NCBI RefSeq assembly: GCF_019977395.1
Contig: NZ_AP024660.1
Location: 4,216,001-4,280,000 of the forward strand
Source: Arthrobacter sp. NicSoilC5
GTDB lineage: Bacteria; Actinomycetota; Actinomycetes; Actinomycetales; Micrococcaceae
Direction of reading: 5' to 3'
Length of the DNA stretch: 64,000 nucleotides
The notes under the pieces are model-generated. The model was not told where the DNA came from. It did not search any database and saw nothing but the letters and a program-made list of their open reading frames with translations. Both the position numbers and the translations under genes were made by a program. Positions 35,401 through 41,882 of the stretch are shown here, piece by piece (within the stretch, counting starts at the first letter, position 1; each line of letters begins with the position of its first letter).

Positions 35401-36258
35401 ATGCTGCTCTCCGTCCTGCAGGCGAATGCGGTGGTCCTGGATATTGGGGCCAACCTGCGCACCGTGGACGATGCCGCCCGCCGGGCCGCGCAGGCCGGTG
35501 CCGACGTGCTGCTCACGCCGGAACTGTTTCCCGTGGGCTATGCCCCGCTGCGGCTGCGCAGCGAACTGGATCCGGCGGCCCTCCCCGCCATCCGCGCCCG
35601 CCTGGCGGACACCGCGCGCCGGCACAGGATCGCGCTCGTCTACAGCCTGCCCGTCCCGGTGCGCACTGAACCACCATCCGCCGGTGCGGCCGGATGGCAC
35701 ATTTCAGCCACCCTGGTGGACGCCCACGGCATGGAAATCCTCAACTACGCCAAGGTGCACCTCTTTGGCAACGAGGAACGCGAGGCATTTGTCGCAGCCG
35801 CGGAACCTCCCGCCGTCGTGGATTTCCACGGCATCCCTACCTCACTGCTGATCTGCTACGACATCGAGTTCCCCGAGGCCGCACGGGCGGCTGCTGCCCG
35901 GGGTGCCGAGCTGCTCCTGGTGCCCACCGCATTGTCGGCCGGCTTCGAGGCAGTACCGCAGGTGCTTGTCCGCGCCCGTGCGCTGGAAAGCCAGCTCACT
36001 GTGGCGTACGCCAACCACTGCGGAAGCGAGGACGCCTACGCTTTTGGGGGCGGAAGCGTGGTGGCGGGGCCCGACGGGACGCTCCTCGCCGAGGCCGGCG
36101 ATGCCCCGGCGCTGCTGTTTGCCGAGGTGGGCACGGAGGCCGTCCGGGCAGCACGCAATGCAGTCCCGTACCTGCGGGAACGCCGGCCCAGGCTGTACCG
36201 GGAGTGGGAGGCAGCCCTGCTGCGGGAACCGGGCCACCCTGGGGGCATCGGCGCCTAG
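35401..36258 (+). CDS. davA: Carbon-nitrogen hydrolase, probable 5-aminovaleramidase (DavA-like)
   Basis: A 285-residue nitrilase-superfamily amidase with the full triad: Glu41 in LTPELFPVGY, Lys118 in NYAKVHLFGNEE and Cys152 in LLICYDIEFPE. The combination of HLFG, CYDIEFPE and the end ...AVPYLRERRPRLY is what I recall of the Pseudomonas DavA amidase, which hydrolyses 5-aminovaleramide to 5-aminovalerate. A lysine 2-monooxygenase-like gene 3.4 kb away supports that role. The start is uncertain: ATG at 35398, 35401 or 35383; GAAGGTGG best fits 35401. It has a 142-residue-equivalent promoter gap from the divergent ROK gene. Other aliphatic amidases are possible. Confidence 0.82.
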   Translation: MLLSVLQANAVVLDIGANLRTVDDAARRAAQAGADVLLTPELFPVGYAPLRLRSELDPAALPAIRARLADTARRHRIALVYSLPVPVRTEPPSAGAAGWHISATLVDAHGMEILNYAKVHLFGNEEREAFVAAAEPPAVVDFHGIPTSLLICYDIEFPEAARAAAARGAELLLVPTALSAGFEAVPQVLVRARALESQLTVAYANHCGSEDAYAFGGGSVVAGPDGTLLAEAGDAPALLFAEVGTEAVRAARNAVPYLRERRPRLYREWEAALLREPGHPGGIGA

Positions 36259-36293
36259 CCGCTGCCCGTCAGCCCGTCAGCCAGTCCCGTCCC

Positions 36294-37901
36294 TCAGTCA
36301 GCCCTGCCCGCCAAGCTGTCTGCGTACTGCAGCGCAATCCACAGCTCTGCCCGCACCTGTGCCTGGTTCAGGTCCATCTGGAGCAGCTCGCCAAGGACGC
36401 CGATCTGCCGCCGAACGCTGTTCCGGTGCAGGCCCAGCAGTTTGGCGGACGCGTCCCAGCTGCCGTTCTCGCTGAGCCAGCCGCGGAGGACAGACAGCAG
36501 CGGATGGCGCCGGTCCGGCTCCAGCGCCAGGACCGGCTGCAGGAGGCGTTCGGCCAGCAAAGTCCCGGCCTCACGGCCCAGCAGTCCGGTGACGGACCAG
36601 GACACCTCATCGGCCCGGATGCTCTGCCCGCTTCTCTGGACCTGGCCGCGCAGGGAGGTGGCCCGCTGGTAGGCGGCGGACAAGCCGGCGAGCTCGGTCG
36701 GTTCGCCCACCACCAGGCGCCACCCGAGCTTCTCCACATCGGCAAGCAGGGCATCATCCACCCTGAGCCGGGTCACGGCGGCGAAGCCGTAGTCAGTGAT
36801 CTCCACCAGTTTTGTGTCGAGCATCCGGCGCCACTGCAGCAGTTCCCGGACGGGGCCGTCTCCTGCCGGCCACTGGGGCGCTTCCACGTTGATGCCCTGC
36901 ACAACCCGCATGGGCGCGGACCGGGTGGAGGAAAGGCTCTGCGCCAGCAGGTCCTTGAGCCCATTCACATGCCTGGTCCCGCCCGCGGTGAGGCTTTCGG
37001 GGTGCAGCAGGACGGCGGTGGCCAGCTGGCTTGGAGCCAGCGACCCGCTGGTGCGTTGCCGCACCAGCAGTTCGAGCAATCCGACCGCGGACTGGACCAC
37101 GTTGTTCTGTGCGGGGGTCAGCGGAACGTCGGAGCCCAGAACCAGGGCGCCAAGATTGGCATCCTTGGTGCTGCGCAGCGGGTGGCCCACCACCAGCGCC
37201 GAGCCCGGCAGGTCAAAGCCGTCCATCTCCACCCGGGGGCCCCGGCCGGACAGCAGCCGTTCCAGCATCGGTTCCAGCAGGGAAAGTTCGACGGCGGTGC
37301 TGCCGCCGGCACTGGTGCCGCGTGCCCGGACCCGGCCGTCCGCCCCCACCATGACCGCCCATACAGGCACGCGCTGGACCAGGGCGGCCAGCAGTTCATG
37401 CTCCGGCCTGGGGGAGAGGACGGCCCGCATGAGTTGCCGGTTGGTCTCCGCCAGCTGCCGGAAAACCCGGGCATTGTCAGTCTCCAGGAGCTGTGAGAAC
37501 TGGAGGCCGATCGCCGCGAACGGAAGCGACTCAGGCACCTCGAACAGGGTGAGGTTGTGCCGCCGGCACGCGTCCAGCACCACGTCCGGGACGGCATCGA
37601 AGTAGGGCCTGATCCCGAACCCGAGGGCCGCCACCTTGGCCTCCACCAGCCGCCGGACATACGCATCCACCCTGGCCGGCGTGCCGCCGTCGCCCAGGAA
37701 GGGAAGTCCGGCGGTGAGCAGGAACTCACCCTCCGGCAAATAGGGTGTGGGGTCCTCCAGTTCGCTGGGTTCAACCCACCGCAAAAGACGGCCGCCGCTG
37801 CCGCCGTCGTGGAGCGTTTTCAGCAGCGGCGGCAGCTGGTCAAGGAACTGCTGGAGGGTGACGAAGCTCAGCCGTCCGGACTCCGCGGGTCCCACAGTCA
37901 T
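36294..37901 (-). CDS. PucR family transcriptional regulator
   Basis: A 535-residue regulator. The N-terminal PucR ligand domain (about 12-125; YLPEGEFLLTAGLPFLG) is followed by a GGDEF-like middle region and a C-terminal helix-turn-helix (about 485-520; WDASAKLLGLHRNSVRRQIGVLGELL). PucR-type proteins control purine, amine and amino-acid catabolism. It sits between the DavA-like gene and the permease-davB pair, divergent from the latter with about 200 bases between starts, and so is the likely regulator of the lysine module. I chose ATG 37901 over the in-frame start at 38009 because PucR homology begins near it. Confidence 0.88.
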   Translation of the reverse strand: MTVGPAESGRLSFVTLQQFLDQLPPLLKTLHDGGSGGRLLRWVEPSELEDPTPYLPEGEFLLTAGLPFLGDGGTPARVDAYVRRLVEAKVAALGFGIRPYFDAVPDVVLDACRRHNLTLFEVPESLPFAAIGLQFSQLLETDNARVFRQLAETNRQLMRAVLSPRPEHELLAALVQRVPVWAVMVGADGRVRARGTSAGGSTAVELSLLEPMLERLLSGRGPRVEMDGFDLPGSALVVGHPLRSTKDANLGALVLGSDVPLTPAQNNVVQSAVGLLELLVRQRTSGSLAPSQLATAVLLHPESLTAGGTRHVNGLKDLLAQSLSSTRSAPMRVVQGINVEAPQWPAGDGPVRELLQWRRMLDTKLVEITDYGFAAVTRLRVDDALLADVEKLGWRLVVGEPTELAGLSAAYQRATSLRGQVQRSGQSIRADEVSWSVTGLLGREAGTLLAERLLQPVLALEPDRRHPLLSVLRGWLSENGSWDASAKLLGLHRNSVRRQIGVLGELLQMDLNQAQVRAELWIALQYADSLAGRAD

Positions 37902-38098
37902 GGCTCGCACCGGCGTCGACCGGCACCCGGCAGGCGGCGCACCCGGCCGCCGCAGGCGCCGGATTGCGGGATCCGCTGCGTTTGTGCATAAAGTCTCACG
38001 GTGGATCACTATAAGTCATTTTGCACCAGCTTGAGAGTTGGCTCACATGCCAATGTTGGTCAGGGGAAACCGACAACTACTCTGAAGGGACGTCAACG

Positions 38099-39625
38099 GT
38101 GACTGTGCCTGTAACCACCGAAAAACCCATCGCGCCAACCATCGGACGGCCCGGCCTCCGGGCCCAGCTGCTCCGGCGTAAACCGATAGGCCACATGGTC
38201 AGCGAAGCCGAAGGCGCCGGTGGGGGAACCGGCCTGGTGCGCAGCTTCGGCGTCCTGCACCTGACGATGATCAGCGTGGGTGCCACCCTGGGGACGGGCA
38301 TCCTGGTGATCCTCGGCGAATCGGTTCCACTGGCCGGACCGGCCATCTGGATTTCATTCATCATCGCCGGCCTGGCCGCGCTGCTCTCCGCGGTGTCGTA
38401 CGCCGAGATGGCCGGCCTGGTCCCGGCCGCAGGGTCGAGCTACTCCTATTCCTACGCCACCATGGGGGAGGGCATGGCCTGGATCTGCGGATGGTGCCTC
38501 GTCCTTGAATACGCCGTTTCCGTGGCCGCCGTGGCCGTCGGCGCGGGCCAGTACGTCAACGAAACGCTGGCTGTGTTCGGGCAGGTGCTGCCCGACGCGA
38601 TGTCCCAGCCTCCCGGCGACGGCGGCCTGGTGAACGTTCCGGCGGTGGCCATCGTCGTGCTCGCCACCATCCTGCTGGTCCGCGGTGCCCGGGAAAGCGC
38701 CTGGATCAACACCGTCATCGTCATCGTCAAAGTAGGCATCCTGCTGTTCTTCTGCGCCGTGGCTTTTACCGCCTTCAACGCAGGAAACTTCGAGCCGCTC
38801 ATGCCCATGGGGGCCGCAGGCGTCTCCGCCGCCGCCTCCAGGGTGTTCTTTTCCTACATTGGGTTCGACGCCGCCTCCACGGCCGGCGAGGAAGCCCGGA
38901 ACCCCAAGCGCGACCTGCCCCGCGCCATCCTGCTGTCCATGGTGATCGTCACCGGCATCTACGTCCTGGTGGCCGTTGCCGCAATCGGCGCCCGCCCCTG
39001 GGGCTGGTTCGACGGAACCGAAGCCGCCCTGGTCCAGATCCTCGAGGAGACCACGCACCAGCCGTGGATTGCGTTGGTCTTCTCCGTCGGCGCTGTCCTT
39101 GCGATCGCCAGCATCGTCCTCACCGTCCTCTACGGGCAGACCCGCATCCTCATGTCGATGTCCCGGGACGGACTGGTGCCCGCGGTCTTCAGCCGCGTCT
39201 CACCCCGCACCGGCACCCCGGCCGCCGGTACCCTGATCGTCGGCACCGCCGTCGCCCTCACCGCAGGGCTGGTGCCGCTTGGCGCCCTGGCCGACGCCAC
39301 CAGCATCGGAACCCTGTTCGCGTTCGCGCTGGTCAACGTGGCCGTTATCTACCTGCGCCGCAACCGCCCGGACCTGAAGCGCAGCTTCCGGGTGCCGCTG
39401 TACCCCATCACCCCCGTCCTGGGCACGCTCATGTGCGCCTACCTGATGGCAAACCTTGGCGCCGAAACCTGGGTGGTGTTCGGCGCGTGGATGCTCGTGG
39501 GCATCGCCATCTACTTCGGCTATGGACGCCGGAACTCCAAGGTAGCGGCCCTGAGCGAGCTCGACTACCGTGAACTGACCGCCAAGGCCCCCGGCCAGGA
39601 ACCTGTGAAAGCAGAACAATCATGA
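38099..39625 (+). CDS. APC family amino acid permease
   Basis: A 508-residue, 12-helix amino acid/polyamine/organocation transporter. The first-helix signature VGATLGTGILVILGESVPLAGPA (about 61-83) and the cationic-amino-acid-type segment RVFFSYIGFDAASTAGEEARNPKRDLP are clear. The latter resembles the bacterial CAT/YfnA group. The GTG start has AAGGGA about 9 bases upstream; an in-frame start at 38021 lacks support. Its stop overlaps the davB start (ATGA), so both are translated as a pair. I infer import of lysine, or of its product, for the monooxygenase. Confidence 0.9.
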   Translation: MTVPVTTEKPIAPTIGRPGLRAQLLRRKPIGHMVSEAEGAGGGTGLVRSFGVLHLTMISVGATLGTGILVILGESVPLAGPAIWISFIIAGLAALLSAVSYAEMAGLVPAAGSSYSYSYATMGEGMAWICGWCLVLEYAVSVAAVAVGAGQYVNETLAVFGQVLPDAMSQPPGDGGLVNVPAVAIVVLATILLVRGARESAWINTVIVIVKVGILLFFCAVAFTAFNAGNFEPLMPMGAAGVSAAASRVFFSYIGFDAASTAGEEARNPKRDLPRAILLSMVIVTGIYVLVAVAAIGARPWGWFDGTEAALVQILEETTHQPWIALVFSVGAVLAIASIVLTVLYGQTRILMSMSRDGLVPAVFSRVSPRTGTPAAGTLIVGTAVALTAGLVPLGALADATSIGTLFAFALVNVAVIYLRRNRPDLKRSFRVPLYPITPVLGTLMCAYLMANLGAETWVVFGAWMLVGIAIYFGYGRRNSKVAALSELDYRELTAKAPGQEPVKAEQS

Positions 39626-41358
39626 CCATCGCCACCGAACTGCCTGCCTCCGACCCCTCCAGCACCTCCACGCCGCCGGCGGACGCGGCAGGGCGGGGCA
39701 CCGGTGAACAGGCAGCTCTCATCACCATGCTGAACCCCGATTTCCCGTTCAGCTACGACCACTACCTGGCCCACCCGGACGGACTGGGAACCGTCCCGCC
39801 GGAGCTGCACGGCACGGAGGTGGCCGTCATCGGCGCCGGGCTGTCCGGGCTGGTGACCGCCTATGAACTGATGAAACTCGGACTGCGGCCCGTGGTCTAT
39901 GAAGCGGACCAGATCGGCGGCCGGCTCCGCACCGCAGCCTTCCCGGCGGCGCCCGGCGTGGTGGCGGACCTGGGCGGCATGCGGTTCCCGGTCTCCGGCA
40001 AGGCCTTCTACCACTACGTGGACCTGCTGGGCCTGGAGACCCAGGACTTCCCCAACCCCCTGGCCGAGGCCACCTCCAGCACGGTGATCGAACTGGCAGG
40101 CAAGAAGTACTACGCGGAAAAGCCGGGCGACCTTCCGCCGTTCTTCCGCGAAGTGGCCGACGCCTGGAAGGCAGCAGTCAACGACGGCGCCAGGTTCGTG
40201 GAGATGCAGGACGCCATCAAGGCGCGGGACATGGCCAGGATCAAGGAACTCTGGAATGAGCTGCTCCCGCTCATGGATGAGCAGACCTTCTACGGTTTCA
40301 TCGCCGCCAGCGAGTCCTTTAAGAAGGCAGGCTTCGCCCACCGTGAAGCCTTTGGCCAGGTGGGGTTCGGCACCGGCGGCTGGGACACGGACTTCCCCAA
40401 CTCCATCCTGGAAATCCTCCGCGTGGTCTACACCGACGCAGACGACCAGCACCGGCTGATCCGCGGGGGAGCGCAGCGGCTGCCCGAGGCACTGTGGCAG
40501 CACGCGCCGTCGGACATGGTGCACTGGCCGGCCGGCACCTCCCTGGCCTCGCTGCACTCCGGCTCGCCCCGCGGCGCTGTGGGGAAGATCAGCCGGGACC
40601 CTGACGGCAACCTGCGGGTCCGGGAGCGTTGGGGCCGCGAGGCCAGCTACCCGGCCGTCGTTACCACATGCCAGTCGTGGCTGCTGTCCACCCGCATCCA
40701 CACCGAGGAGGCCCTGTTCCCGGCCGAACTGTGGACCGCCATGGAGAAATCGCATTACATGCAGTCCTCCAAGACCTTTGTGATGGTGGACCGGCCCTTC
40801 TGGAAGGACATCGACCCCGAAACGGGCAATGAGGTCCTGTCCATGACGCTGACGGACAGGCTGAACCGCGCCACCTACCTGCTGGACAACGGCCCGGACC
40901 AGCCCGCCGTCATCCTGTTGTCCTACACCTGGAATGACGACGCCCTGAAGTGGCTGGCCCTGGACGCGGACGAGCGCGTGGAACTGATGCTGCACTCGCT
41001 GGAGCAGATCTACCCCGGCGTGGACATCGCCGGGCACATCGTGGGCCAGCCCATCACCGTGTCCTGGGAGGCGGACCCCAACTTCATGGGGGCCTTCAAG
41101 GCCAACCTCCCCGGACACTACCGCTACCAGCAGCGGCTGTTCACGCACTTCAAGCAGGACAGGCTGCCGGAATCCCAGCGCGGCATATTCCTGGCGGGCG
41201 ACGACGTCTCCTTCACCGCCGGCTGGGCAGAAGGCGCCGTGACCACCGGGCTGAACGCGGTGTGGGGCGTGGTGAAGCACCTGGGCGGGTCATCGGCGCC
41301 GGGGAACCCGGGCCCAGGCGACCTGCTGGACGAGTTCGGGCCGATCAGCCTGGATTAG
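39622..41358 (+). CDS. davB: FAD-dependent L-lysine 2-monooxygenase (DavB-like)
   Basis: A 578-residue flavoprotein. The GAGLSG dinucleotide motif is at 71-76 and the pattern YELMKLGLRPVVYEA follows. Long stretches (DLGGMRFPVSGKAFYHYVD, then GQVGFGTGGWDTDFPNS, then MQSSKTFVMVDRPFWKD and GIFLAGDDVSFTAGW) match what I remember of Pseudomonas lysine 2-monooxygenase, which converts L-lysine and O2 to 5-aminovaleramide, CO2 and water. Length agrees (about 560). An N-terminal low-complexity extension of about 35 residues precedes the conserved start NPDFPFSYD. Tryptophan or arginine/phenylalanine 2-monooxygenase activity is the main alternative; the DavA-like partner favours lysine. Confidence 0.85.
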   Translation: MTIATELPASDPSSTSTPPADAAGRGTGEQAALITMLNPDFPFSYDHYLAHPDGLGTVPPELHGTEVAVIGAGLSGLVTAYELMKLGLRPVVYEADQIGGRLRTAAFPAAPGVVADLGGMRFPVSGKAFYHYVDLLGLETQDFPNPLAEATSSTVIELAGKKYYAEKPGDLPPFFREVADAWKAAVNDGARFVEMQDAIKARDMARIKELWNELLPLMDEQTFYGFIAASESFKKAGFAHREAFGQVGFGTGGWDTDFPNSILEILRVVYTDADDQHRLIRGGAQRLPEALWQHAPSDMVHWPAGTSLASLHSGSPRGAVGKISRDPDGNLRVRERWGREASYPAVVTTCQSWLLSTRIHTEEALFPAELWTAMEKSHYMQSSKTFVMVDRPFWKDIDPETGNEVLSMTLTDRLNRATYLLDNGPDQPAVILLSYTWNDDALKWLALDADERVELMLHSLEQIYPGVDIAGHIVGQPITVSWEADPNFMGAFKANLPGHYRYQQRLFTHFKQDRLPESQRGIFLAGDDVSFTAGWAEGAVTTGLNAVWGVVKHLGGSSAPGNPGPGDLLDEFGPISLD

Positions 41359-41882
41359 CCTTCAGAAGCGTGGAGCTCGCGGTGTTTCGCCGCGAGTTCC
41401 ACGTAGCGCGCCGCATTGGCGCGGACGCCGTCGAACTCTTCATCGGTGAGTTCGCGGCGCACCTTGGCGGGTACGCCCGCCACCAGCGAGCGGGGCGGAA
41501 CCACCGTACCTTCGAGCACCACGGCGCCGGCGGCCACCAGCGAGCCGGCGCCGATTACTGCACCGTTGAGGACGGTGGCGCCCATGCCGATCAGGCAGTC
41601 GTCCTCCACCGTGCAGCCATGCACGACGGCGGCGTGCCCCACGCTGACCCGCTGGCCCACCGTGCAGGGGAAGCCGGGGTCGGCGTGCAGCACCACATTG
41701 TCCTGCAGGTTGCTTCCGGCGCCCACGGTGATGGCCGCGGTGTCGGCGCGGACGGAGACGCCGTAGAAAGCGCTGGCGTCCGGGCCCAGGTTGGCCTTGC
41801 CGATGATCGAGGCCGACGGGGCCACGAACGCTGATTCATGGACAGCCGGGGAATTGCCGGCGAAAGGGTAGAGAGGAGCCAT
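41355..41882 (-). CDS. Gamma-class carbonic anhydrase-like hexapeptide protein
   Basis: A 175-residue left-handed beta-helix protein with repeating [LIV]-G-x4 turns (about 30-150). The metal histidines are placed as in gamma-carbonic anhydrases (NVVLHADPGFP, then VGHAAVVHGC). The group also includes PaaY/CaiE-like proteins, so CO2 hydration is likely but not proven. It ends with the typical C-terminal helix (ARYVELAAKHRELHA). Its 3' end overlaps davB by 4 bases on the opposite strand. A palindromic repeat lies just upstream of its start. Confidence 0.88.
   Translation of the reverse strand: MAPLYPFAGNSPAVHESAFVAPSASIIGKANLGPDASAFYGVSVRADTAAITVGAGSNLQDNVVLHADPGFPCTVGQRVSVGHAAVVHGCTVEDDCLIGMGATVLNGAVIGAGSLVAAGAVVLEGTVVPPRSLVAGVPAKVRRELTDEEFDGVRANAARYVELAAKHRELHASEG

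Follow-up and report, generated by a model that had tools for sequence, protein, structure and literature searches.

The module and its genes

A four-gene module for the breakdown of a basic amino acid, with arginine or lysine as the candidate substrate, was found in Arthrobacter sp. NicSoilC5. It lies at 35.4–41.4 kb of a 64,000-nucleotide stretch (contig NZ_AP024660.1, positions 4,216,001–4,280,000), here called the window, of a genome that is a single contig of 4.69 Mb. The genes are, in order, an amidase (+), a PucR regulator (−), an APC permease (+) and a flavin amino-acid monooxygenase (+) (Table 1), and modules of the same gene order were found again in relatives. A first-pass annotation of the window had placed an amidase, a PucR regulator, an APC permease and an FAD enzyme at about the same coordinates and had read them as a lysine 2-monooxygenase/aminovaleramidase island. 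The gene calls and their families (PF00795, PucR with HTH_30, AA_permease_2 and PF01593) were confirmed; the reading is revised below.

Table 1. Features of the module, in window positions (ORF, open reading frame)
Feature	Position	Strand	Family or basis
CN-hydrolase (nitrilase-superfamily) amidase	35401..36258; alternative longer start 35383	+	PF00795
PucR-family regulator	36294..37901 (ORF extendable to 38009)	−	PF07905 and PF13556 (C-terminal HTH_30)
Candidate operator/promoter, conserved intergenic block between PucR and permease	37983..38047		Alignment; putative function
APC/CAT-type amino acid permease	38099..39625 (ORF from 38021)	+	PF13520 (AA_permease_2), AA_permease_C
FAD-dependent basic L-amino-acid 2-monooxygenase	39622..41358	+	Amino_oxidase PF01593; 812 bits to 3we0

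The permease and monooxygenase genes are coupled, as first noted, by a 4-base overlap (ATGA) of stop and start. The permease probably starts at GTG 38099, which is in frame and aligns with the ATG of several relatives. The regulator gene does lie between the two halves, is convergent with the amidase gene and divergent from the permease gene, and probably starts at the minus-strand ATG at 37901. The intergenic block has inverted arms GTGCA...TGCAC and TGAGA...CTCACA. It is conserved in 17 aligned sequences of 21, the other four having been left out of the alignment with about 1.2 kb inserted there.

The monooxygenase is 61% identical to the crystallized lysine oxidase/monooxygenase (L-AAO/MOG) of Pseudomonas AIU 813 (3we0), its best match in the PDB at 812 bits and a similarity well beyond chance, and 61.5% identical to Pseudomonas putida DavB, which bears out the likeness to DavB seen in the first pass. 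Tryptophan 2-monooxygenase (4iv9) reaches 33% identity and 205 bits, and the enzyme does not group with tryptophan monooxygenases or venom-type amino-acid oxidases. The proposed monooxygenase chemistry is sound because identity is 61% to the AIU 813 enzyme against 33% to tryptophan monooxygenase. No second copy of the flavoenzyme was found in the window genome, where the next matches score at most 25 bits.

Table 2 of PMC5832979 reports that the AIU 813 enzyme accepts lysine, ornithine and arginine. In the same paper, Asp238 is described as holding the terminal charge of the substrate, with Trp235, Gln258 and Ala515 among the residues that line the site (PMC5832979). Seven of nine AIU 813 pocket residues (R102, W235, D238, Q258, Y416, W418, F473, A515 and W516) are kept in the window enzyme, as R121, W254, D257, Y435, W437, F492 and W535. 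The other two are changed, Q258 to H and A515 to G in AIU 813 numbering; A273, H277 and G534 of the window enzyme align with C254, Q258 and A515. The second-site Gln349 is Ala. The tryptophan-monooxygenase pocket residues F235 and V238 are absent, with W and D in their places.

The amidase carries the motifs TPELF, YAKVHLFG and ICYDIEFPE, which we take to hold the Glu, Lys and Cys of the nitrilase triad, in line with the first-pass assignment. Its best PDB match is the amidase 5jqn/3hkx, presumably from Nesterenkonia (229 bits, 46% identity), and it is 42% identical to the amidase beside a P. putida DavB.

Two types of monooxygenase

Homologues were compared in an alignment of 179 rows, with sampled loci numbered L and sampled genomes G. 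The rows were 30 closest-relative loci (window included), 40 family loci, 20 class-level loci, 7 plasmid loci (of 11 records) and 80 loci of the AIU 813 kind, together with the AIU 813 enzyme and tryptophan monooxygenase. Family and class loci were hand-picked for genus spread rather than at random. The loci of the AIU 813 kind were the best 80 of 558, chosen by homology alone (79 Pseudomonas and one Paucimonas, a metagenome-assembled genome).

Types were assigned by residues 258 and 515 and, for the DavB type, 349. Signature residues and type membership are thus not independent, since the types are defined by those residues; independent support for the split comes from the tree and from the Pseudomonas loci picked by homology. 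All 80 of the latter read R-W-D-C-Q-Y-W-F-A-W with Q349, hence Q258/A515. Fourteen further loci keep Q258, A515 and Q349: eight from Micrococcaceae, one other actinobacterial locus and five alphaproteobacterial plasmid loci. The window type (H258, G515) takes in most remaining rows, including Streptomyces-like and Rhodococcus-like loci at about 57–64% identity to the window enzyme. Four loci belong to neither: L058 and L122, which have Asn238, and L139 and L140, which are distant enzymes.

In a tree of 63 rows the DavB type forms one clade (support 100/100), and the window enzyme falls outside it. At fifteen positions the types differ in residues that are each fixed to at least 90%, as counted in 22 DavB-type and 38 window-type representative rows. 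Of these, 237, 258, 514 and 515 coincide with pocket residues or adjoin them, and 470 lies three residues away from F473. Because tryptophan monooxygenase and L138–L140 are long branches and the tree is not rooted for the two types, the window type could be paraphyletic. Both types co-occur in two genomes, G138 and G016; a third, G153, holds a DavB-type copy and a 68% copy that is classed by identity only.

A monooxygenase homologue was found in 146 of 395 sampled family genomes, 65 of 77 of the genus and 65 of 394 sampled class genomes. The module is widespread in Micrococcaceae, where its layout is common, and is not the rare, isolated island of the first-pass annotation.

L058 and L122 represent a third subtype with Asn238, Ala254, Gln258 and Gly515. 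They form their own clade (100/99) and have an amidase gene nearby in each case, and the genome of L058 also holds a window-type copy (L057). The enzymes at L139:7620–9134 and L140:7662–9146 are about 35% identical homologues with Phe238. Both are preceded by a conserved gene pair of about 215 and about 500 amino acids; for the 504-residue protein of L139, Pfam gives no match at 1e-10.

Genomic context

Of 49 window-type loci, 12 have a gene for an agmatinase/guanidinobutyrase-type ureohydrolase within the sequence fetched; of 94 DavB-type loci, none does. Flanks differed in length: most family and class loci had about 9 kb, the 80 AIU 813-like loci and the majority of plasmid loci 6 kb at most. 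With the reach limited to 6 kb, the counts are 11/49 and 0/94, or 11/49 and 0/14 when those 80 are excluded. Six of the linked genes share the strand of the monooxygenase and lie 33–85 bp from it, and the match in L124 is 9 kb away and cut by the locus end. By chance such a gene would fall within a 20-kb stretch in about 1% of loci, as estimated from the two arginase-family genes in the 4.69-Mb window genome. On the tree, no fewer than four gains or losses are required to explain the linkage, and the position of the gene varies (upstream, downstream or divergent).

Two loci, L048 and L052, have the four-gene order of the window with a ureohydrolase 37 bp downstream of the monooxygenase and gabT upstream beside the amidase. 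In Tsukamurella, an annotated case, speB, a permease, a CN hydrolase and an oxidoreductase stand in a row. At L060 a ureohydrolase is found 4.7 kb from a window-type monooxygenase. Within 16.5 kb, L121 holds a monooxygenase, an amidase, a ureohydrolase, a thiamine pyrophosphate (TPP) enzyme, two aldehyde dehydrogenases and, cut by the locus end, a gabT-cluster aminotransferase; its TPP enzyme is 61% identical to that of the window genome. Near the DavB-type pair, a gabT-family aminotransferase was found in L128 and L069 (2/14), as a 5-aminovalerate route predicts. PucR was found in 26 of 49 window-type loci and, at the cut-off used, in none of 94 DavB-type loci.

A different context was found in L135 and L136, which are window-type by signature. 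These loci have an amidase, a coenzyme A (CoA) ligase, a VinK-like acyltransferase and a type I polyketide synthase (PKS), the last two adjacent in L135 and about 12–30 kb off in L136. For the arginine-derived starter units of arginoketides, a set of arginine monooxygenase, 4-guanidinobutyramide hydrolase and 4-guanidinobutanoate:CoA ligase is described (PMC5082578, PMC10322714), and the gene set near L135 and L136 matches this one. L138, a 41% homologue, has an amidase and a CoA ligase; no PKS was found in its fetched flanks.

The window genome has its own ureohydrolase, at 3,917,740–3,918,801. Its PDB matches are guanidinobutyrase 3nio (278 bits), 3-guanidinopropionase (271 bits) and, as the best agmatinase, one at 237 bits; the linked ureohydrolase of L052 also matches 3nio best (281 bits). 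Linked ureohydrolases of Micrococcaceae are 61–66% identical to that of the window genome. For each of the seven Micrococcaceae genomes that have a linked copy, a single match to the window genome's ureohydrolase was counted, as a number of matches rather than as places, and L071 has a second ureohydrolase with 33% identity. The only other arginase-family gene of the window genome is HutG.

Directly behind the ureohydrolase is a TPP enzyme that scores 315 bits to 5-guanidino-2-oxopentanoate decarboxylase, below the cut-off of 500; a "hypothetical protein" family scores higher, at 337 bits. The first-pass annotation had found the later steps missing from the window. A gabT is nevertheless present in the genome, at 1,812,954, outside the window. 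Arginine deiminase was not detected in the window genome. An agmatine route by arginine decarboxylase is possible. CsiD of the glutarate route had no match in the window genome, with a positive control in 1 of 14 genomes. Lysine 6-aminotransferase (TIGR03251) gave only matches below cut-off in the window genome, likewise in all 14 controls, which makes this search uninformative.

Other genes vary around the module. A gamma-carbonic-anhydrase-like gene (41355–41882 of the window) is convergent with the monooxygenase gene and follows it. In L036, L037, L040 and L047 the homologue sits between a ROK regulator and the amidase instead, so the place of the gene shifts within the neighbourhood. An alanine-racemase-family gene (TIGR00492, 285–286 bits) lies between PucR and permease in L246 (4194–5441, −) and L147 (6129–7379, −). 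The gap is of similar length in L230, L245, L247, L035, L040 and L041, where its length suggests a racemase. The gene is not in the window, and one 44% identical homologue lies elsewhere in the window genome. Its product might supply the module with D-basic amino acids.

Substrate and comparison with known systems

The module is predicted to serve the uptake and opening of L-arginine, with the flavoenzyme as an L-arginine 2-monooxygenase (EC 1.13.12.1). We give this reading a probability of roughly 70%; arginine is favoured over lysine because of clade, pocket residues and genomic context. The first-pass annotation was right to see a basic-amino-acid 2-monooxygenase akin to DavB; lysine as its substrate is probably wrong. 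The permease would import a cationic amino acid, and the flavoenzyme would bind the guanidinium group against Asp257 (AIU 813 Asp238). Gly534 and His277, in place of Ala515 and Gln258, are proposed to accommodate the larger guanidino side chain. By homology, L-arginine and O2 would give 4-guanidinobutanamide by oxidative decarboxylation, which the amidase would hydrolyze to 4-guanidinobutanoate and NH3. The guanidinobutyrase-like ureohydrolase could then release urea and gamma-aminobutyrate (GABA), which would enter the succinate route through gabT. PucR probably controls the permease–monooxygenase operon through the conserved intergenic block. The term "self-contained" of the first-pass annotation is too strong, as the proposed next enzymes, guanidinobutyrase and gabT, are encoded elsewhere in the genome.

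Several observations weigh against arginine. The AIU 813 enzyme takes lysine, ornithine and arginine, so changed pocket residues need not imply a changed substrate. The amidase tree does not mirror the type split, class-level window-type amidases grouping with DavB-linked ones. Thirty-seven of 49 window-type loci have no nearby ureohydrolase; none was linked in the four Streptomyces-like (L123, L125–L127) or the five Rhodococcus-like (L130–L134) loci. Genes of the gabT type are also near 5 of 49 window-type loci, and thus near both types. In the window genome itself the ureohydrolase is unlinked to the monooxygenase. Its NCBIfam name is agmatinase, over two cut-offs (314 bits, cut-off 302); with this name, and with 3-guanidinopropionase close behind guanidinobutyrase, its subtype is not settled. 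A homologue of it occurs in 356 of 395 family genomes, which makes co-occurrence of monooxygenase and ureohydrolase uninformative. A common PucR-side operator for the permease block and the ureohydrolase operon was considered and rejected, as a search for nine motif words upstream of the ureohydrolase found none. Permease family was likewise rejected as substrate evidence: the best families, BcaP at 494 bits and cationic amino acid permease at 300 bits, stay under their cut-offs, and sequence does not settle what is transported.

An arginine pathway with two branches is doubtful. Part of the flux through the flavoenzyme would be lost to oxidase chemistry, as with the AIU 813 enzyme. The amidase would then clear the amide, the TPP decarboxylase and an aldehyde dehydrogenase would clear the 2-ketoarginine branch (with H2O2), and both would meet at 4-guanidinobutanoate.

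Lysine or a mixed specificity is possible. A lysine 2-monooxygenase/5-aminovaleramidase pair, with gabT acting as davT, is the stronger of these two and is unlikely. It would suit the identities to AIU 813 (61%) and P. putida DavB (61.5%), the conserved Asp238 and aromatic cage, the 42% identity to the amidase beside DavB, the presence of gabT in the genome, and the name lysine 2-monooxygenase that some close homologues bear in databases. Against these stand the place of the window enzyme outside the DavB clade, the pocket substitutions and the lack of a CsiD match in the genome. Among the loci examined, moreover, ureohydrolase linkage is confined to the window's own type, and separate DavB-type pairs occur in the same family and sometimes in the same genome.

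A broad arginine, ornithine and lysine oxygenase is less likely again. Its amidase would take 4-guanidinobutanamide, 4-aminobutanamide and 5-aminovaleramide, and one gabT would receive both GABA and 5-aminovalerate. The range of substrates given for AIU 813 in Table 2 of PMC5832979, the retained Asp238 and an amidase tree independent of the two types are consistent with it; the type-wide fixed pocket differences and the repeated ureohydrolase linkage point instead to one main substrate.

Among 49 window-type loci, 45 have an amidase in the sequence fetched. That it is an unrelated neighbour, with the unit being only permease and monooxygenase, is very improbable: it has its own upstream region beside a ROK regulator, a transcript shared with the monooxygenase would have to cross PucR, and no amidase was found in the fetched stretches of L050, L051, L124 and L129, yet 38 of 40 family loci keep it close to the monooxygenase through rearrangements, and it is at most 216 bp away in 14 of 17 window-type loci outside the family.

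If the arginine reading is right, the module is a catabolic gene module for arginine 2-monooxygenase across Micrococcaceae and other actinobacteria, and would supply enzymes for converting arginine to 4-guanidinobutanoate or GABA. The two-residue signature His258/Gly515 versus Gln258/Ala515 (AIU 813 numbering) would separate the window type from lysine DavB. Homologues bear such names as tryptophan 2-monooxygenase, lysine 2-monooxygenase or amine oxidase in databases. Older biochemistry of arginine oxygenase exists, and no description of such a catabolic module was found in the open-access literature as judged by titles and abstract openings. A published approach uses a PF00795 neighbour to distinguish lysine from tryptophan monooxygenases (PMC12462448). 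It would presumably label window-type loci as lysine, and mislabelling is easy.

Among solved structures, the closest to the window amidase is 5jqn/3hkx. In the amidase tree it joins the amidase of L060 (SH-aLRT 100). Because that amidase neighbours a window-type monooxygenase and a ureohydrolase, 4-guanidinobutanamide may be the natural substrate of the crystallized enzyme. Guanidinobutyrase 3nio is the best solved match to both the window genome's own ureohydrolase, an unlinked gene with the NCBIfam name agmatinase, and the linked one of L052. Tryptophan 2-monooxygenase 4iv9 belongs to the same superfamily as the window flavoenzyme and also has Gly at 515; it differs in having Phe235 and Val238 where the window enzyme has Trp and Asp.

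The DavB–DavA system of Pseudomonas (EC 1.13.12.2; 3we0, 5yb6–5yb8) shares the flavoenzyme family, the alpha-amino/carboxylate and cage residues, Asp238 and a CN-hydrolase partner. The window type differs in H258, G515, A254 and the 15 diagnostic positions, and falls outside the DavB clade. PucR and a permease accompany it in many loci, and relatives have the ureohydrolase linkage.

The azalomycin-type arginine monooxygenase/4-guanidinobutyramide hydrolase of Streptomyces, as described in PMC5082578 and PMC10322714, has the same proposed reaction and a partner amidase, and the window-type L135 and L136 lie in such PKS contexts. The two sets are likened by description rather than by sequence. 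Unlike the azalomycin-type set, the window module includes a permease and PucR and lacks an adjacent CoA ligase or PKS, and for this reason it is read as catabolic rather than biosynthetic.

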